Source of the DNA: Calditrichia bacterium
Lineage (GTDB): Bacteria; Calditrichota; Calditrichia; RBG-13-44-9; J075
DNA length: 46,075 bases
Direction of reading: 5' to 3'
Assembly (NCBI GenBank): GCA_028284905.1
Contig: JANQQU010000058.1
Coordinates: forward strand, 1 to 46,075
Shown: positions 2,856 to 28,755 of the stretch, piece after piece
Numbering within the stretch: position 1 is the stretch's first letter
How the letters are laid out: every line of letters starts with the position of its first letter
Notes under the pieces: generated by a model
Databases searched by the model: none
Told to the model about the DNA's origin: nothing
Seen by the model: the letters and a program-made list of their open reading frames with translations, nothing else
Position numbers and translations under genes: made by a program

Positions 2856-3950
2856 ATGAGTTTTAATAACGGTAATGAAGCAAGTTTTCAAAGCGGGCAC
2901 CTGACCCTGGAGGATGGCAGCGTTTTTGAAGGCTATGTTTTCGGAAAGAACGGCGCCAGTGCCGGAGAAGTTGTTTTTAATACTGGCATGGTCGGTTATC
3001 CGGACACTTTAACCGATCCCTCTTACCTGGGACAAATTCTGGTGATGACCTATCCACTCGTGGGAAATTACGGTATTCCGCCCCATAAGCAGATGAGCAA
3101 TCTGGAACGCAATTTCGAATCTTCCCGGATCCAGGTTAAAGGGTTGATAGTGTCGGACTATTCCACGGATTACAGTCATTGGCACGCGGAAAAAAGTCTT
3201 GATCGCTGGCTGAAAGATTATGGCGTCCCGGGATTAACCGGTGTGGATACCCGTGCGCTCACCAAAAAATTACGCGCCAGTGGCACAATGCTGGGAAAGA
3301 TCGAGATCAAACGTGAGAGCGTCGACTGGTATAATCCGAATCTGGAAAATTTGGTTGCCACTGCCAGCATAGACGCACCGGAAACTTATGGGGAAGGGAA
3401 AAAGACGGTGGTGCTGATCGACTGTGGCGCTAAAAATAATATCATCCATCACCTCATGAAAAGGGGCTTTAAGGTTGTTCGCGTGCCCTGGGATTACGAC
3501 CTCAGTAAAATGCAGTTTGATGGATTGATGATCTCTAATGGACCGGGAGACCCAAAAATGTGCCGGCCAACCGTAGCACAAATTCAGGAAACCATTGCCC
3601 GGGATATTCCGGTGTTTGGCATCTGTATGGGGCATCAGTTACTGGCGTTGGCTGCCGGTGCGGATACCTACAAATTAAAGTATGGCCATCGCAGTCAGAA
3701 TCAACCGGTGTTGGAGGTCGGCACAAATCACTGCCTGGTGACCTCTCAAAATCATGGCTTTGCAGTCGATGATCGAAGTTTGCCGAAGGACTGGTCTCCC
3801 TGGTTTATTAACCTGAACGATCAGACCAATGAAGGCATTCGCCACAAATCCGGCCGTTTTATGAGCGTGCAGTTTCATCCGGAAGCAATGCCCGGCCCTG
3901 TCGATGCAGAGTATCTCTTCGATGAGTTTGCTCGCATGGTAAACGGCTAG
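2856..3950 (+). CDS. carA: Carbamoyl-phosphate synthase small (glutaminase) subunit CarA
   Basis: Hydrolyses glutamine and passes ammonia to CarB for carbamoyl phosphate, the precursor of pyrimidines and arginine. It has 364 residues, slightly shorter than the E. coli protein. The N-terminal half is the CarA-specific domain (LEDGSVFEGYVFG, MTYPLVGNYG). The C-terminal half is a class I amidotransferase with nucleophile C257 in GICMGHQ and the H341/E343 pair in FHPEAMPGP. The ATG at 2856 follows an AGAGGTAGG ribosome-binding site. carB starts 65 bp downstream on the same strand, so the two are almost certainly cotranscribed. Confidence 0.97.
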   Translation: MSFNNGNEASFQSGHLTLEDGSVFEGYVFGKNGASAGEVVFNTGMVGYPDTLTDPSYLGQILVMTYPLVGNYGIPPHKQMSNLERNFESSRIQVKGLIVSDYSTDYSHWHAEKSLDRWLKDYGVPGLTGVDTRALTKKLRASGTMLGKIEIKRESVDWYNPNLENLVATASIDAPETYGEGKKTVVLIDCGAKNNIIHHLMKRGFKVVRVPWDYDLSKMQFDGLMISNGPGDPKMCRPTVAQIQETIARDIPVFGICMGHQLLALAAGADTYKLKYGHRSQNQPVLEVGTNHCLVTSQNHGFAVDDRSLPKDWSPWFINLNDQTNEGIRHKSGRFMSVQFHPEAMPGPVDAEYLFDEFARMVNG

Positions 3951-19016: not shown

Positions 19017-21929
19017 TCATTCGTTCTCTTCTGGATCACTATTATCGCTTTCACTCTCCGGCACCTCCTCCATAGTCGCTGAGGAATCCGGAACCGCTAT
19101 TTCCACGCCCATATCCTCCAGTAATGCTTTCATTGCCGTGGAATGGAACGCGCGCCGCACATCTCCGATGCCGCCACGGGTGCGGGTGGGATGCACGCGG
19201 TTGGTCAATAATATGATCGCTATATCGTAATTGGGGTCGATCCACATCGAGGTGCCGGTAAATCCGGTATGTCCAAAACTGCCATCGGAGTAATAATCAC
19301 CGGCCAATGAGCCTTCGTGCGGTGTCGTCCAGCCCAGGGCGCGAATACTGCTCTCCGGCATTAGCTGCCGGCGCGTCCAGTATTTAATCGTATAAGGTTT
19401 ATAAATACGATGATGATCGTAAATGCCGCCATTGAGAAACATTTGCGCCAGCTTGGCTAAGTCTTCAGCTGTAGAAAAGAGCCCCGCATGAGTGGAAACA
19501 CCGTTCAGGAAATGAGTGTTTTCATCGTGGACATCACCGTGGATCAAGCCGCGGTTCATGCTGCCGCCGATTTCTGTCGGTGCAATTCTTGGCAGCAACG
19601 GCGCCGGTGGATTATACATTGTGCTCGTCATTCCCAGTGGCTTGTAAAGGCGAGACATCGCCAGTTGATCGATGCTCTGATTGGTAACCGTTTCGAGCAC
19701 TTTGCCAATCATAATTAAACCAAGGTCGGAATAGATCATGGAATCTCCCGGTGTATAGTCCAGGGGCAGATTATAGATGTAATCCAAAGCGGTTTTTTTA
19801 TTGCTGGATTTATTCCAGAGATCCGCCCACCAGTGCGCTCCGGAAGAATGAGAGAAGAGATGGCGGAGTGTCACCTTGTCTTTATCCGGTCCGCTAAAGA
19901 GGGGGAGATAACTGTTGACCGGTATATCCAGATTCAATTTCCCCTGTTCCCAAAGCTGCATGGACACAGACGCGGTAGCTGCTACTTTTGTTACGGAGGC
20001 CAGATCATAAATCGTTTCGGTGGTGACCGCCGGCGCATCAGCCGCATAAGTTTGGTGGCCAAAGGCGCGACTGGTGATCAGCTCTCCATTACGAACAATC
20101 GCCAATTGAGCCCCGGGGAAAATAGTATCTGCGATTGCCTGCTCGATGATGCCAAAGGCTTCCTGCAGCACGGTCTCATCGATGTTGCGGGTCAAGGTCA
20201 TATCATACGATTTACCCTGCAACCCATCGCCAATGTTGAAATAGCCGGGAATTGACACCGGTAGCTTCCCCTGGAAAGGAATTTCGCCAAACATCGCTTT
20301 CACACCGGAAGCAACCGCCAGCGGAGCAGTGCCATATGCGCAGATATATGATGGAATCTCCGGCAATTGTCGAATCACATATGGAGAGCCGAAGGAGGCA
20401 ACGGCCATCGGTTTATCTATCTTGAAAAATTCATCCAATAGTTTTACTGTTGTATCCGGAAGAGAAACGGAACCTTTATGGCTGCCCCAGCGAACGAATA
20501 TGCCAGCAATGACCGTCCGGGATTTTTCCGCCATTTCGATAATCTCGCGAATTTCCCCTTCGCTGGTACGCGGATCTATATAAGCTTGTTTAACTGTCGG
20601 AATACGGCGGGCGACTTCCCGGGTTAATGTGCTGGCATAGCTGGAGGCATTATTTCGATCGGTGATGGAAACCACCAATACGCTGTCCAGCGTATCTGCA
20701 TGAAATGGGAAAATTGATTTATCATCTTTCAGGAGCGTCATTGAAGCATCGGCGATTTCCTGCGCTTTGGCAAGATTCTCCGGACTGGCGAGATGCTTTT
20801 CTACTGTATCCAGATCAATCGTCGGATGACGATGGAGGCCATGCTTGCCTTTGACGCGGAGAATGCGACTGACGGCTTCATCAATGTGGGCCATGGAAAT
20901 GCGTCCCTCGCGCACTGCTTCAATAACAAAATTGCAGGTTGCTTCCAGATCCGGTGGAATGAGAATCACATCAACCCCGGCATTGATGGCGGCAACTGCT
21001 GCTTCCCCGGACCAATAATTGCGGGTAATGCCACCCATGTCCATAGCGTCGGAAATCAGCAGGCCATCGAAGCCCATTTCTTTCCGTAGGACGTCCTCTA
21101 TAAAATATTTATCCAGCGTGGCCGGCCGGCCTTCCATTTGCGGAAATGCGCTAAAGGTAATGTGGGATACCATAATCCCTTTTACCCCGGCTGCAACGGC
21201 ATCACGGAATGGTGCCAGTTCTACATTGCGGATTCTTTCCTGAGAGGCAGTAATTGTCGGCAAACCTAAATGAGAATCAACGTCAGTATCGCCATGACCG
21301 GGATAATGCTTCGCAGTCGCATAAACGCCCTGCGATTGCAATCCGCGAATATAAGCGCTGCCCAGCTTTCCGACCATTGCCGGATCTTCCCCGTAGGAAC
21401 GGGTATTAATGATGATATTGTCCGGGTTATTGTTGACGTCGACAACCGGTGCATAGGCCATATGGACGCCAATCGCTTTCGCCTCACGGGCGGTTACTTC
21501 ACCCATCTGGTAAGCATATTCTTCCGAGCCGGTGGCGCCGAGCGCCATGTTCTGCAAAAACTCGGTACCATGATCGATGCGCATGGGGATACCCCACTCG
21601 ACATCCGCCATTACCAGCAAGGGGTGCTTCGATTCCCGCTGAAGGCGCTCAATACAGCGCGCCACGGCATAAGTTTCGCCGCGATAAAATGCCACGCCGC
21701 CGATATGGTTTTTCCGAACCATATCTAACAAGCGCTCAAAATAAGCATTGTCTTCATTGTAATAGCGGGGGTGAAACGCCGGAGCGAACATTTGCCCGAC
21801 TTTTTCTTCCAGCGTTAATTTTTTGAGTTGATTAACGGCCCATTTCTGGGGAGCGGGCTTAAATTGCCGGGAGCTGCTACAACTCCAGACAAACAGCAGG
21901 GTAAGTGCCAGACAAAAGTATCGTCTCAT
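19017..21929 (-). CDS. Lipoprotein fusion: GH3 beta-N-acetylhexosaminidase (NagZ-like) + beta-lactamase-fold hydrolase
   Basis: 970 residues. The signal sequence MRRYFCLALTLLFVWSC ends at a likely lipidated C17. GH3 catalytic domain about 35-370: the NagZ acid/base loop KHYPGHGDTDVDSH (207-220) and nucleophile D294 in LISDAMDMGG. A GH3 C-terminal sandwich follows (about 400-570). The third part (about 585-940) is a class C beta-lactamase/DD-peptidase fold with S645-V-T-K648, Y733-S-D and H887-T-G. It should release GlcNAc from peptidoglycan fragments and may act on their peptides or on other esters. GH3-lactamase fusions are known in Bacteroidetes. The ATG at 21929 with AGAGGAAAATCT is chosen because a longer frame (from 22079) would bury the signal peptide. 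An acidic tail ends the protein. Confidence 0.92.
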   Translation of the reverse strand: MRRYFCLALTLLFVWSCSSSRQFKPAPQKWAVNQLKKLTLEEKVGQMFAPAFHPRYYNEDNAYFERLLDMVRKNHIGGVAFYRGETYAVARCIERLQRESKHPLLVMADVEWGIPMRIDHGTEFLQNMALGATGSEEYAYQMGEVTAREAKAIGVHMAYAPVVDVNNNPDNIIINTRSYGEDPAMVGKLGSAYIRGLQSQGVYATAKHYPGHGDTDVDSHLGLPTITASQERIRNVELAPFRDAVAAGVKGIMVSHITFSAFPQMEGRPATLDKYFIEDVLRKEMGFDGLLISDAMDMGGITRNYWSGEAAVAAINAGVDVILIPPDLEATCNFVIEAVREGRISMAHIDEAVSRILRVKGKHGLHRHPTIDLDTVEKHLASPENLAKAQEIADASMTLLKDDKSIFPFHADTLDSVLVVSITDRNNASSYASTLTREVARRIPTVKQAYIDPRTSEGEIREIIEMAEKSRTVIAGIFVRWGSHKGSVSLPDTTVKLLDEFFKIDKPMAVASFGSPYVIRQLPEIPSYICAYGTAPLAVASGVKAMFGEIPFQGKLPVSIPGYFNIGDGLQGKSYDMTLTRNIDETVLQEAFGIIEQAIADTIFPGAQLAIVRNGELITSRAFGHQTYAADAPAVTTETIYDLASVTKVAATASVSMQLWEQGKLNLDIPVNSYLPLFSGPDKDKVTLRHLFSHSSGAHWWADLWNKSSNKKTALDYIYNLPLDYTPGDSMIYSDLGLIMIGKVLETVTNQSIDQLAMSRLYKPLGMTSTMYNPPAPLLPRIAPTEIGGSMNRGLIHGDVHDENTHFLNGVSTHAGLFSTAEDLAKLAQMFLNGGIYDHHRIYKPYTIKYWTRRQLMPESSIRALGWTTPHEGSLAGDYYSDGSFGHTGFTGTSMWIDPNYDIAIILLTNRVHPTRTRGGIGDVRRAFHSTAMKALLEDMGVEIAVPDSSATMEEVPESESDNSDPEENE

Positions 21930-22042
21930 AGATTTTCCTCTGTTAATAACAAGTCGATTTGGGATTCGTGGCATTACGTATTGAGCAATTTCAATAAAAT
22001 CCGCCACTTTTTCAAATTCTACATTTTTTTTAACCGTATGTA

Positions 22043-22096
22043 ATACTATATTGTCCATCAGTGAAAGATTTGTATTCAAACGTCAAAATATAGTAT
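22043..22096. promoter_or_regulatory. 10-bp inverted repeat between divergent genes, possible operator
   Basis: Perfect repeat atactatatt (22043-22052) and aatatagtat (22087-22096), 34 bp apart and about four helical turns centre to centre, in the 183-bp gap between the GH3-lactamase and AraC genes. It could be bound by the AraC protein or another dimer acting on both promoters. No consensus is known to me. Confidence 0.45.
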
Positions 22097-24335: not shown

Positions 24336-24583
24336 TTCTACCGGTTCTGAATAATGTCAATTAATTCATAAAAAATAATCTGCCTAAGAGAAACTCCAGC
24401 TGGAATGTATCTGTTTTAAGAGGTCACAAAGGACTTATTAAATCAATTAATAAAAAAGGACGATACAGCGCCAGAAAATTATAAAATCCTCCGGCTTTAG
24501 AGATTAGGTCTGAATAAATAGGACATTATTCACATTCAGCGGATTCTCAGCCAGTAAATTAGTTGGCGAACAAGGGAGTACTT

Positions 24584-25267
24584 ATGCGGATTTTAATAGT
24601 TGAAGACGATCATAAGCTGGCATCAAACTTACAGAACCTTTTGAAAGATGAAGGATATGTTGCTCATGTAGAACACGATGGCCTAAAAGCATGGGAGACC
24701 GCTTATGTGGAGAATTATAACCTGATTATTCTTGATATCAATTTACCGGGCATGGATGGATTGACGGTACTAAAAAACTTGCGGGCAGACCAGGTCGATA
24801 CGCCAATTATTTTGTTAACCGCCCGCAATAACACTGATGACAAAGTGCAGGGGTTGGATAGTGGGGCGGATGACTATTTGCCCAAACCTTTTGCAACGCC
24901 GGAATTATTGGCCCGGGTTCGGGCATTAATGCGCCGGAATACCAACGTGAATAGTGCCGTGATTAATGTTGGCAATATAACAGTGAATACATCTTCCCAT
25001 GAGGTGTCTGTAGGGAAAGAATTGATTTCTCTGACGCCACGGGAATACAGCATCCTTGAATTATTACTGTTGAATATGGATCGGGTCGTTTCCCGCTTAT
25101 CGATTGCCGAGCATGTTTGGGATGACAACTTTGATCTGATGACGAACGTCGTTGATGTGCACATTCGAAATCTGAGAAAAAAACTGAAAGATAACGATAA
25201 AAACAATCAGTTGATTTCCACAGTTTGGGGAATCGGTTACATTATCAAAAATACGGCAGAAGCATGA
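24584..25267 (+). CDS. OmpR/PhoB-family response regulator
   Basis: 227 residues. The receiver domain has the acidic pocket EDD (7-9), phosphorylated D51 in LIILDINLPG, the switch T in LLTARNN and K in LPKPF. A winged-helix DNA-binding domain follows (NVGNITVNTSSHEVSV ... LTPREYSILELLLLN ... NVVDVHIRNLRKKLK). The ATG at 24584 has AAGGGAGTACTT before it; a TTG seven codons upstream is less likely. It overlaps the kinase start as ATGA, so the two form a coupled pair. No target site can be named. Confidence 0.95.
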   Translation: MRILIVEDDHKLASNLQNLLKDEGYVAHVEHDGLKAWETAYVENYNLIILDINLPGMDGLTVLKNLRADQVDTPIILLTARNNTDDKVQGLDSGADDYLPKPFATPELLARVRALMRRNTNVNSAVINVGNITVNTSSHEVSVGKELISLTPREYSILELLLLNMDRVVSRLSIAEHVWDDNFDLMTNVVDVHIRNLRKKLKDNDKNNQLISTVWGIGYIIKNTAEA

Positions 25268-26664
25268 TCAAACTTATTAAAGTGCGAATAACGATTTTTG
25301 GTATTGTGATCGTATTCGTACTGTTTATGACTTTTGGTATCTTCATTTATTTGGGGCTGGAAAGCCTGCTGCAGAATCAGTTCGACCGTAGATTATATTT
25401 GCAGGCGGACACGATAGAAGATAGTTATGTCCATGCCGAAGGGAAGTTTAAATTCCTTGAGCCGGGCACGAAGAATTATGATCAGGCGAAAAATAAGCGT
25501 GTCCGAGTCGTGCAAAATACCGGCGATGTATTATTTGAATCGGAATATTTTCAGGAACGGGAGATCCCTTTCCCATTTGAAAAAGCCAACCAGCGTAAGG
25601 ATAAGAAATATTTTTACTACAGTTATCAACGGGGAGAAGACCGTTTTTACCGCAGTATTGTTATTCCCGTTGTCGATCCGCAAACTCAGGAGGTGCTTTC
25701 CTGGGTAGAAGTCAGTGATTCAAAAAGGTATATCGAAGCTTCCCTGTCCTATTTTCGCAAGTTATTACTGGCATCATTACCCCTGGTGCTTATTGGGGTC
25801 GCTGCCGCCAGCTTCTATGTGGTAAATCGTCTGATTCGTCCCGTTTCATTAATGGCACAACGCGCAGAAAAAATTACTTCAGAAAATCTGAACAGTCGGG
25901 TTCCGGTGATCAATCCCCGGGATGAAGTGGGCCGCCTCGGCATTACTTTCAATCAATTATTGAAGCGGTTGGAAGATGCCTTTCGCCAGCAACAGCAACT
26001 ACTGAGTAATATCTCCCACGAGTTAAAAACGCCATTAACAATACTAAGAACCCACTGGGAAGCGGAGATCTCCAACACCCGCTTGCCGCAGGCGACCCGG
26101 GAAAAACTGGTGGGAGACATTGAAGAATTGGCAAGATTGTCGAAAATGGTCGATGACCTCTCGTTGTTGTCCCGCTCTATGGAAGATTTAACCAATCTCA
26201 ACAAAGCTAAGCTGGATTTGTCCGAATTGCTTGGTAACCTGGTGCATGATATGGAAATGCTGGCAGAAGCAAAAGAGCAAACGCTTGTCTGGCAAAATGG
26301 TTCAGCCTTATATGTCAATGGGGACCAGCGCTATTTAAAACGGCTGTTTCTCAATCTGCTGGACAATGCCATTAAATATACGCCGCAAGGAGGGCAGGTT
26401 TCCGTCAATTGTTCCGTTAACGGAAACACAGCCCAGATTGAGATATCCGATTCCGGCATTGGTATTCCGGTTTCCGATCAGCCACATATTTTTGAACGGT
26501 TCTATCGGGCCAAGAATACCAAGTATGGTGCTACGAAAGGCAGTGGCCTTGGCCTGACAATCGCAAAGTGGATTGTCGAGGCGCATGGTGGCACGTTGGC
26601 TATCCAGAGCGGTACCGGCAAAGGCAGCACCTTTGTAGCGACGCTGCCATTATTTCTTTCCTGA
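25264..26664 (+). CDS. Membrane sensor histidine kinase (partner of the upstream regulator)
   Basis: 466 residues. Membrane helix 1 (about 9-31), a periplasmic sensing part of about 130 residues without a known domain, membrane helix 2 (167-187), HAMP linker (about 190-240), HisKA with H252 in NISHELKTPLT, and HATPase_c with NLLDNAIKYTPQGG, ISDSGIGIP and GSGLGLTIAKWI. The start overlaps the response regulator stop (ATGA). The last 15 bp overlap the end of the M56-M23 gene on the other strand, so transcription of one may disturb the other. The signal is unknown. The EnvZ/CusS-like layout suggests an envelope stimulus. Confidence 0.94.
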   Translation: MIKLIKVRITIFGIVIVFVLFMTFGIFIYLGLESLLQNQFDRRLYLQADTIEDSYVHAEGKFKFLEPGTKNYDQAKNKRVRVVQNTGDVLFESEYFQEREIPFPFEKANQRKDKKYFYYSYQRGEDRFYRSIVIPVVDPQTQEVLSWVEVSDSKRYIEASLSYFRKLLLASLPLVLIGVAAASFYVVNRLIRPVSLMAQRAEKITSENLNSRVPVINPRDEVGRLGITFNQLLKRLEDAFRQQQQLLSNISHELKTPLTILRTHWEAEISNTRLPQATREKLVGDIEELARLSKMVDDLSLLSRSMEDLTNLNKAKLDLSELLGNLVHDMEMLAEAKEQTLVWQNGSALYVNGDQRYLKRLFLNLLDNAIKYTPQGGQVSVNCSVNGNTAQIEISDSGIGIPVSDQPHIFERFYRAKNTKYGATKGSGLGLTIAKWIVEAHGGTLAIQSGTGKGSTFVATLPLFLS

Positions 26665-27288
26665 TTTCAGAAATGAGAAATCAATAACATCCCGTGGGTC
26701 AAGCAATTGATCGTTTTGATACACTTCGAAATGAAGATGAGGTGCGGTGGAAACGCCAGTGTTCCCGACTGCGCCGATGACTTCCCCGGCAGCAACTTTA
26801 TCTCCAGCTTGCACATCGATTTTACTTAAATGAGAATAATGGGTCGTATAGCCATCACTGTGCTGAACGGAGATGCGTTTTCCGTGATTGCTGTCGGATG
26901 TTTCCGCAATAGTAATAGTGCCGTCTGCTGCACTGAACACATCGGTGCCGATAGGCGCGGCAATGTCTATGCCTTTATGTAGCTGCTTCTTTTTGGTGGT
27001 CGGATTTTTCCGCATGCCATAATGGGAAGTGATGCGGCCGGATTTAATCGGCGCGGTAAAAGTTAAGGCGTGTAAATTTGCCGCCGTCATTGAGGGGGTA
27101 GGGGAAGCTGTGTCATCACCAAAAGATGTAACGAGCGGGGCGGTAACCGCCAGCGTATTGGTTGGTGTTGTATCCGACAAGCTTGCCGCTGCAGTTGAAG
27201 TGTTAAAATGTTTCGGTGCCAAAGGCAAAATTAAAAGTCCTAATAAAATTGTCAGTAAAATGGGTAAGCAGATTCGCTGCTTTTTCAT
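26650..27288 (-). CDS. Possible internal product: stand-alone M23 peptidase
   Basis: In frame within the M56-M23 gene, codon M334 (27288) is preceded by AAGGAGAG ending 4 nt before it, a better site than those of many genes here. Translation from it gives 212 residues starting MKKQRICLPILLTILLGLLILP, which reads as a signal peptide or anchor, followed by the complete M23 domain. The cell could thus make both the full sensor and a free peptidoglycan hydrolase from one message. This is inference from the ribosome site. The helix is also needed as the last membrane segment of the fusion. Confidence 0.5.
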   Translation of the reverse strand: MKKQRICLPILLTILLGLLILPLAPKHFNTSTAAASLSDTTPTNTLAVTAPLVTSFGDDTASPTPSMTAANLHALTFTAPIKSGRITSHYGMRKNPTTKKKQLHKGIDIAAPIGTDVFSAADGTITIAETSDSNHGKRISVQHSDGYTTHYSHLSKIDVQAGDKVAAGEVIGAVGNTGVSTAPHLHFEVYQNDQLLDPRDVIDFSFLKSGKK

Positions 27289-28287
27289 AATACTCTCCTT
27301 TTTCAGCGTTTTAAGGCGTGTGGTGAAATGCGATAAATTGTTATTTGAGAAACCGGCAAATACCGGGTAGGTATTCGCTTCCATGGAAGTCATTTTGAGC
27401 ACATCCAGCATGCTTCGTCCATAATCCCGCGGTGAAACAGATCCGCTGGATAATACCAGACGATCACAAATCTGCTCCCGGGATTGATTCATGTATCGGG
27501 AGGCGATCCAGACAGCCGGATGAAAGAAGTAAATAATTTGCAGGAGGTTTTGGCAGCGTATCCAGAGCTGGTCGAAACGTTTAATATGCGCCATCTCATG
27601 AGCGACGATTGCCGAAACCCGTGCTTGTTTTTGTGAGGATATCAATTCTTGCGGTATAAAAATAACCGGCCGAAGAACGCCCATCGTAAAAGGAGCAGGG
27701 CAGCTACGATCGGTTACCAGTAAAACCCGTTTTTTTATGGAAAAGTGTGATCGCCAATGAGTAATAATCGCTAGCAACTCCGGTGCTGTTACCGGCGTGC
27801 TTTGGCGGATCAGACGATGATAATAGCCTATTTTTCGAAGAAAGAGAAAGGCGCTTACGCCAATTCCCAGCAACCAAAACAGGAGCATTGAAATCTGCCA
27901 GAACGATAATGAAGAAATTTCAGCTGTGTTTTTTGAAGTCGTCGTCGCTGATGAGAATCCTAGACCTTCCGCGAGCGGGAGGAAGTCATGAAAAAATGTT
28001 TGTTGCTGCGTAACTTCATCACCCCATAGATACGCAATGAGCGGCGTATCTTCTAAAAACGCCCGGGCGCTAAAAGCGGTACTGAAGTCCGGCGGCAGTA
28101 TGAAGCGGAGGAACAGTAACGCCCAAAGGCAATATTGAAAATAGGGGAATCGTCCCCGCAGCACATATCGGGTGAATAATAAGATAACCGCCATTATGAT
28201 CAATCCATAAAGACTTTGCAGGAGGAGATGATTGTAAAATGTCGAAATCATTTCACTCAGAGAAAAAGATGTCCAGAATTCAGCCAT
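26650..28287 (-). CDS. BlaR1-like M56 membrane peptidase fused to an M23 (LytM) peptidoglycan endopeptidase
   Basis: 545 residues. The first 330 form an M56/BlaR1-type membrane zinc protease: helices at about 21-42, 50-65 and 131-150, and H230-E-M-A-H234 (HExxH) with a following REQICD segment. A final helix (about 339-356) leads to a Thr/Ser/Ala-rich linker. The end (about 408-540) is an M23 endopeptidase with H437 and D441 in HKGID, H483/H486 in HYSH and H517-L-H519, all residues needed for zinc and catalysis. In BlaR1 this outer position holds the beta-lactam sensor; here it is an apparently active peptidoglycan hydrolase. The start overlaps the BlaI-type gene by 8 bp (ATGGCTGA). Database names for M23/M56 proteins exist, but I know of no described function. 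Confidence 0.93.
   Translation of the reverse strand: MAEFWTSFSLSEMISTFYNHLLLQSLYGLIIMAVILLFTRYVLRGRFPYFQYCLWALLFLRFILPPDFSTAFSARAFLEDTPLIAYLWGDEVTQQQTFFHDFLPLAEGLGFSSATTTSKNTAEISSLSFWQISMLLFWLLGIGVSAFLFLRKIGYYHRLIRQSTPVTAPELLAIITHWRSHFSIKKRVLLVTDRSCPAPFTMGVLRPVIFIPQELISSQKQARVSAIVAHEMAHIKRFDQLWIRCQNLLQIIYFFHPAVWIASRYMNQSREQICDRLVLSSGSVSPRDYGRSMLDVLKMTSMEANTYPVFAGFSNNNLSHFTTRLKTLKKESIMKKQRICLPILLTILLGLLILPLAPKHFNTSTAAASLSDTTPTNTLAVTAPLVTSFGDDTASPTPSMTAANLHALTFTAPIKSGRITSHYGMRKNPTTKKKQLHKGIDIAAPIGTDVFSAADGTITIAETSDSNHGKRISVQHSDGYTTHYSHLSKIDVQAGDKVAAGEVIGAVGNTGVSTAPHLHFEVYQNDQLLDPRDVIDFSFLKSGKK
27286..27300 (-). promoter_or_regulatory. Strong internal ribosome-binding site before codon 334 of the M56-M23 gene
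   Basis: On the minus strand the sequence AAGGAGAGTATTATG places a near-perfect Shine-Dalgarno at ideal spacing before an in-frame ATG. Confidence 0.65.
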
Positions 28288-28681
28288 TCTTTTTATCCTC
28301 CGCAGTATCTTCTTCCAGAAGGCGATTTAGTTCAGCAATTTCATCCTCTCGCAGGGTATTATTACGGGCGAATAAAGAAACCACTGTTCCATAATCCGTT
28401 TCCAGAACTTTATCGGCAAAGAACTGTACCAGGCGAACCAATCCGGCCGGGCGGGATATTTGCGCGCTATAGATAAAAACCCCATGGAATTGTTCGCGGC
28501 TCAAGAATCCTTTTTTAACCATGCGATCCATAGTTGTTTTTGTGGTGGAATAGGCCCAGCCGTTTTGTGGGGAAATTATATCATGAACTTCGCGGATACT
28601 CTGACTGCCATTGCGCCAAAGTGCCCGGAGAATATCATATTCGGCTTTAGATAAATCCGGTACTTGTGTCATCAAAAACAT
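28280..28681 (-). CDS. BlaI/MecI-family transcriptional repressor
   Basis: 133 residues. The N-terminal winged helix (LSKAEYDILRALWRNGSQSIREVHDIISPQNGWAYSTTKTTMDRMVKKGFLSRE) is typical of BlaI, MecI and CopY. The C-terminal third is the dimerisation helix pair, where proteolysis by BlaR1-type sensors frees the operator. AGGAG lies 5 nt before the ATG. The stop overlaps the M56-M23 start by 8 bp, so repressor and sensor protease are made together. A perfect TACA/TGTA palindrome upstream is its likely own operator. No beta-lactamase gene adjoins it, so the regulated response is something other than a classic bla operon. Confidence 0.95.
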   Translation of the reverse strand: MFLMTQVPDLSKAEYDILRALWRNGSQSIREVHDIISPQNGWAYSTTKTTMDRMVKKGFLSREQFHGVFIYSAQISRPAGLVRLVQFFADKVLETDYGTVVSLFARNNTLREDEIAELNRLLEEDTAEDKKNG

Positions 28682-28706: not shown

Positions 28707-28721
28707 TGTTACATTGTAACA
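28707..28721. promoter_or_regulatory. BlaI-type operator palindrome
   Basis: tgttacattgtaaca is a perfect 7-1-7 inverted repeat holding the TACA...TGTA half-sites known for BlaI/MecI. It lies 26 bp upstream of the repressor start and just downstream of the predicted -10, well placed for autorepression. Confidence 0.85.
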
Positions 28722-28727
28722 GGTGCT

Positions 28728-28755
28728 AATATAAACACTAAAAAACAAATGTCAA
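28728..28755 (-). promoter_or_regulatory. Promoter of the BlaI / M56-M23 operon
   Basis: On the minus strand TTGACA (28755-28750) and TATATT (28733-28728) are 16 nt apart, a sigma70-like match, followed within a few bases by the BlaI-type palindrome. Confidence 0.5.

Follow-up and report, generated by a model that had tools for sequence, protein, structure and literature searches.

A BlaI repressor paired with a BlaR1-type M56 protease that carries an M23 peptidoglycan hydrolase domain: a candidate autoregulated switch in a Calditrichia bacterium

The window analyzed here, a 46,075-nucleotide stretch of DNA from a Calditrichia bacterium (assembly GCA_028284905.1, contig JANQQU010000058.1, positions 1 to 46,075), encodes a BlaI/MecI-type repressor and, overlapping it, a membrane protein in which a BlaR1-type M56 protease module is followed by an M23 (LytM) peptidoglycan hydrolase domain (Table 1). 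The original prediction for this locus, made from the letters of the window, had listed the BlaI-type gene, an 8-bp overlap, the HEMAH site, a final membrane helix, and an M23 domain with H437, D441, H517, and H519 in place, and all of these were recovered from the open reading frames (ORFs), Pfam matches, and a residue check. The repressor matched the full Penicillinase_R model (PF03965; 96 bits, positions 1-115), that is, a winged helix with a dimerization domain, and it matched PDB MecI 1okr at E 6e-12; a possible alternative ATG lies at 28672. In the second protein, Pfam placed Peptidase_M56 at residues 21-305 (128 bits) and Peptidase_M23 at residues 436-531 (112 bits). On sequence comparison, full-length matches in other genomes at E 1e-177 or better rule out a chance origin for this ORF.

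Upstream of blaI, we found a predicted BlaI operator, the perfect palindrome TGTTACAATGTAACA, which had been missed in the original prediction and which sits 6 bp past the -10 box of a sigma-70-like promoter. BlaI-family repressors characteristically have a TACA/TGTA palindrome as the operator of their own promoter, and a repressor on this palindrome would be expected to cover the transcription start. The promoter has 11 of 12 consensus matches; as shuffled sequences yield 0.7 such matches by chance, its support comes from the relatives, where TTGAC lies 29-38 bp (usually 37-38) before the operator in most orthologous loci. Either this palindrome or a variant form (TACTACAnTGTAGTA; spacers of 0-2 nt) precedes blaI in most orthologous loci, and at four loci (L143, L150, L152, L154) an automatic search gave no convincing operator before blaI.

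We used an AlphaFold model of the M56-M23 protein (16-sequence alignment, mean pLDDT 76) to compare its architecture with that of BlaR1. Membrane helices were predicted at residues 10-43, 48-63, 129-162, and 336-353, and residues 17-319 superposed on the cryo-EM structure of BlaR1 (8ext; Z 19.6, 244 residues aligned, rmsd 3.4), with helices both before and after the protease domain, as in the BlaR1 fold. The extracellular loop of BlaR1 is docked in the site of its outer domain; in the M56-M23 model, extracellular loop 87-125 had pLDDT below 50. BlaR1 residues H201, E202, H205, D210, D246, Y261, and R294, which are reported to be important (PMC9834060), correspond in the alignment to the invariant H230, E231, H234, D239, D275, Y289, and R324, and the distal Glu ligand E271 is invariant as well. 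Because both ends of BlaR1 lie outside the membrane (PMC9834060) and the net charge of each segment of the M56-M23 protein agrees with that layout, we place the M23 domain outside the inner membrane by homology. The predicted structure, together with this homology, agrees with the BlaR1-like topology that the original prediction had assumed, with M23 outside rather than in the cytoplasm. BlaR1 is shed via a signal-peptidase site (PMC9834060); when a shared site of this kind was sought behind the last helix of the fused relatives, only an LP[ML] motif was common to them. An autocleavage site may lie at G312-F313 (P-x-F in relatives), a suggestion from an alignment in which this position falls only approximately on BlaR1 S283-F284.

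Table 1. Features of the blaI and M56-M23 locus, in window coordinates.
Feature	Position	Strand	Basis or remark
Sigma-70-like promoter: -35 TTGACA (28755-28750), 16-nt spacer, -10 TATATT (28733-28728)	28728..28755	-	Consensus match
Predicted BlaI operator, perfect palindrome TGTTACA-A-TGTAACA (TGTTACAATGTAACA)	28707..28721	.	26-40 bp before blaI ATG
BlaI/MecI-type repressor	28280..28681	-	133 aa; Pfam PF03965, PDB MecI 1okr
BlaI F104, aligned with P1' Phe102 of MecI/BlaI cut by BlaR1	28370..28372	-	1okr alignment; cut site PMC9834060
8-bp overlap ATGGCTGA, blaI stop / M56-M23 start	28280..28287	-	Overlapping or abutting in relatives too
M56-M23 membrane protein	26650..28287	-	545 aa
BlaR1-type M56 module (residues 21-305): three membrane helices and cytosolic gluzincin domain	27373..28227	-	PF05569, BlaR1 structural match
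HEMAH zinc-protease motif, residues 230-234 (BlaR1 H201, E202, H205)	27586..27600	-	HExxH invariant in alignment
Last membrane helix (336-353), conserved LP[ML] motif after it	27229..27282	-	Model and alignment
M23/LytM domain, residues 436-531 (Pfam), fold 401-538	26695..26982	-	PF01551, 112 bits; outside by homology
HxxxD zinc ligands H437, D441	26965..26979	-	Invariant in 31/31 fused domains
Catalytic His486 (LytM H260 equivalent)	26830..26832	-	Intact here; Q/Y/K in 9/31 fused relatives
HxH motif H517, H519	26731..26739	-	Present in window copy

Phe102 at the P1' position of the BlaR1 cut site is almost invariant (PMC9834060), and the equivalent of F104 was invariant in our alignment of related repressors. 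The pair therefore resembles BlaR1/BlaI and MecR1/MecI of Staphylococcus and Bacillus in its BlaI-type repressor, its TACA/TGTA palindromic operator, its P1' Phe, and an M56 membrane protease whose active-site residues and helix layout (N-out/C-out) match theirs. It differs at P1, which is Leu103 here and Leu or Met in relatives, versus Asn in BlaI and MecI (Asn101 in S. aureus). The outer domain is also different: a class-D beta-lactamase-like sensor in BlaR1 and MecR1, and here an M23 domain after a long flexible linker. Unlike in BlaR1/BlaI, no resistance gene was found, and no second operator in the genomes scanned.

The modeled fold of the outer domain (residues 401-538) matched the LytM/M23 domains of DipM, StM23, and ShyA at Z about 20. 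Like ShyA, DipM, LytM, and the Csd/Pgp3 endopeptidases, it has the fold and the zinc ligands, and the window copy retains every catalytic residue (H437, D441, H486, H517, H519), including the second catalytic His, H486, which was absent from the original residue list. In contrast to those endopeptidases, it is fused behind a BlaR1-type protease, and its fused relatives have not all remained complete: zinc ligands were retained in 31 of 31 distinct fused M23 domains, whereas a catalytic His was lost in 11 of the 31, compared with 1 of 34 free M23 domains (Fisher p 0.0009), the free set being the best M23 matches of related genomes rather than a random sample and neither set being phylogenetically independent. 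Loss of H486 alone accounted for 9/31 fused and 0/34 free domains (Fisher p 0.0006). At L161 and L165, a Cys stands in place of the first HxH His, as read from the alignment by eye; because of an alignment gap, just one of the two changes appears in the automatic column count. The description of the M23 domain as active-looking thus holds for the window copy but not for the family.

Since the zinc ligands are kept throughout while a catalytic His is often lost, binding appears constant and hydrolysis optional in the fused domains, a pattern that would be expected of a receptor domain. EnvC, NlpD, and RgsM, regulators for which activity has not been detected, offer a precedent for LytM domains that bind or activate instead of cutting. 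EnvC-type LytM domains have lost the zinc site, whereas all fused domains here keep it, and none of the three precedents is coupled to a protease that cuts a repressor. RgsM is a peptidoglycan binder that showed no activity in vitro (PMC6107284). The combination of a kept binding site and dispensable turnover also recalls the BlaR1 sensor, whose beta-lactamase fold is deacylated slowly (PMC7593790).

The pair is conserved across genomes, in answer to the question raised with the original prediction of whether BlaI would have other neighbors elsewhere. In G002, G003, and G021, BlaI was 59-65% and the M56-M23 protein 33-40% identical to the window proteins. The full fusion was present in 4/40 genomes of the class and in about 20/82 KSB1-type genomes (the phylum of G094), and BlaI adjoined it wherever the contig reached; a broad survey, in which three candidates were scored per genome, found the fusion in at least 5 of 385 genomes. 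M56-M23 proteins also occurred in metagenome-assembled genomes (MAGs) labeled Deltaproteobacteria/Myxococcota (L070) and Pseudomonadales (L071), and a Rhodobacterales-labeled MAG encoded an M56-M23-TonB_C protein (L074), with the caution that MAG taxon labels may be wrong. M56 partners of the same BlaI group varied in their outer part, with two M23 domains at four loci (L062, L064, L144, L145) and a short tail with almost no outer domain in three proteins (L067-L069). At L059, one degenerate and one intact M23 were joined to M56. Two Alphaproteobacteria-labeled MAGs combined the same BlaI and operator type with an M56 protein bearing a long charged coiled-coil tail (L065, L066), and at L063, L157, L159, and L160 the M56 outer domain was about 250 aa without a Pfam match (L160 and L063 scanned). 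The window's own genome holds other BlaI-M56 pairs (L046-L050), in which M56 C-termini carry HEAT (L048) or TonB_C (L049). All of these follow one principle, a protease-repressor module whose outer part can be exchanged; among the outer parts seen here, only M23 is itself a wall enzyme.

The exact palindrome occurred once in the 8.55-Mb genome, at the blaI promoter, and its single copy with one mismatch was within coding sequence. Across 14 genomes, the pattern TRBTACANTGTAVYA matched in 10, nine of which had one match, at blaI; the second match in G021 was inside coding sequence. The looser core TNNTACANTGTANNA gave 54 matches versus 97 for a reversed control (15 genomes), and the off-target core sites inspected (own genome, G003, G434, G406) were in coding sequences, except one on G003:C57 that lies between two ORFs and has poorly matching flanks. 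No wider BlaI regulon was found with the exact, degenerate, and loose patterns in the window's own genome and its relatives, although such scans would miss sites if BlaI tolerates very degenerate sequences. Because the operator occurs once per genome and looser matches do not rise above background, the circuit looks autoregulatory, with its own operon as the target. Different repeats lie upstream of the other BlaI paralogues in this genome, so the BlaI-M56 pairs look insulated from each other at the sequence level.

We favor the interpretation, for which we see slightly better than an even chance, that the pair forms an autoregulated BlaR1/BlaI-like switch in which M23 serves as a wall-binding receptor and, in the present genome, might cut the wall as well. 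The BlaR1 module, the P1' Phe of BlaI, the retention of the pair across lineages, the single operator per genome, the stricter conservation of zinc ligands than of catalytic residues, and the varied outer parts of M56 partners in this BlaI group speak for it. M23 is a plausible input to such a switch, and we infer the following sequence of events. BlaI dimers on the palindrome would block the promoter; the outer M23 domain would bind a wall peptide in a zinc-dependent manner, with or without cutting it; the signal would travel via the membrane helices to the M56 site, and this site would cut BlaI before F104. The promoter would then open and yield more M56-M23 protein, making the response self-amplifying, and the BlaI made along with it would reset the switch. 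Because the M23 active site is complete in this genome, the induced protein would probably also be a tethered wall endopeptidase, with a single molecule serving as both input and output; relatives whose M23 has lost a catalytic His appear to retain binding only.

Several observations weigh against this receptor model. The linker from the last helix to M23 spans 16-64 residues (median 29) across the fused relatives, whereas the BlaR1 sensor follows the last helix closely (PMC9834060), and rigid BlaR1-style coupling between M23 and M56 is therefore doubtful. As the sequences of L067-L069 show, a BlaI-M56 pair can be retained without an M23 domain. For the copies with a lost catalytic His, a circuit controlling only itself would have no obvious output. 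Finally, the catalytic-His losses are scattered and amount to 8 changes by parsimony, but the weak tree forces no more than one, and support in the M23 and M56 domain trees is too weak for the number of either fusion origins or catalytic-His losses.

The best-surviving alternative is that M23 is cargo: M56 would detect stress on the envelope by means of its own helices or extracellular loop and would cut BlaI, and the operon would be a regulated source of a membrane-tethered wall hydrolase or an amidase activator. Only the operon itself appears regulated, and therefore the product wanted would have to be the fusion protein; the complete active site of the window M23, a long flexible linker that suits a tether, and the occurrence, within the same BlaI group, of M56 proteins that all but lack an outer domain agree with this. 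So does G004, which has a free signal-bearing M23 (L055; C569, 5035-5562) where its relative G003 has BlaI and M56-M23 (L051; C39, 7623-9660). These two loci share the gene order SDR, HAD, S9-like peptidase, and the G004 arrangement possibly reflects loss of BlaI-M56 with M23 kept, or else the ancestral state. However, loss of a catalytic His in more than a third of the fused domains with all zinc ligands kept is ill-suited to a pure hydrolase, and we regard the cargo explanation as possible but rather unlikely.

The version put forward in the original prediction, in which a wall-sensing M23 and its protease switch a larger set of BlaI-controlled wall or stress genes, now seems improbable. S. 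aureus BlaI does control blaZ and mecA as well (PMC9834060, PMC7593790), but the genome-wide search for TACA/TGTA palindromes that was meant to list the regulon returned a single exact site, operators in the genomes scanned were found only at the pair's own promoter, and the off-target matches and divergent repeats described above argue in the same direction. Less probable still is a beta-lactam response system with M23 as an incidental part: BlaI and BlaR1-type parts are present, but Pfam found no penicillin-binding (class-D beta-lactamase-like) sensor in the protein and only M23 past the last helix, the NCBIfam model blaR1_generic scored 104 bits against a cut-off of 400, the operon has no beta-lactamase or transpeptidase gene, and the gene 4.6 kb away, which joins GH3 domains to a PF00144 beta-lactamase-type serine hydrolase domain (window 19017-22079), has no operator match nearby. 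That the M56-M23 protein is functional and its BlaI neighborhood incidental is hardly credible, since the overlapping or abutting genes, their conserved order, and the BlaI identity among the first four genomes speak against it, even though the other BlaI-M56 pairs of the genome could mark such pairing as a general habit of these families.

Returning to the receptor model, we tentatively extend it to propose that, perhaps more than once, a wall hydrolase fold became the native peptidoglycan receptor of a BlaR1-type protease, and that this fold would have kept zinc-dependent binding and lost cutting in some lineages, within a self-amplifying switch whose sole target is its own operon; this broader claim is possible rather than probable. 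BlaR1-type signaling has come to light mainly through antibiotic resistance, yet many genomes are rich in M56-BlaI pairs, for which, to our knowledge, few natural signals have been described. In the present pair, the outer domain itself points to a candidate ligand, the stem peptides of peptidoglycan, and the apparent one-promoter circuit makes the signal question approachable with one reporter. The arrangement also suggests that the penicillin sensor could have arisen by an outer-domain swap on a wall-watching protease. M56-M23 fusions were already known, and their mechanism was not: a review of M23 proteins names M56 among rare M23 partners, with multi-catalytic architectures in <1% of hits and no role of M56 in wall cleavage shown (PMC9662197), and a partial literature search agreed with the original prediction in returning no paper that describes a BlaI-M56-M23 mechanism.

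Other loci and neighboring genes provided minor observations. At L163 (G447:C203, 971-2172), blaI is followed by an ORF retaining only the last helix and M23, and remnants of M56 suggest an internal deletion and frameshift, the locus being either a pseudogene or an assembly error. Directly behind the M56-M23 gene of L151 lies a further signal-bearing M23 gene that stands on its own (3063-3653). In the window, response regulator and histidine kinase genes (24563-26664) converge on the M56-M23 gene, and the 3' end of the histidine kinase gene overlaps it by 15 bp (26650-26664).

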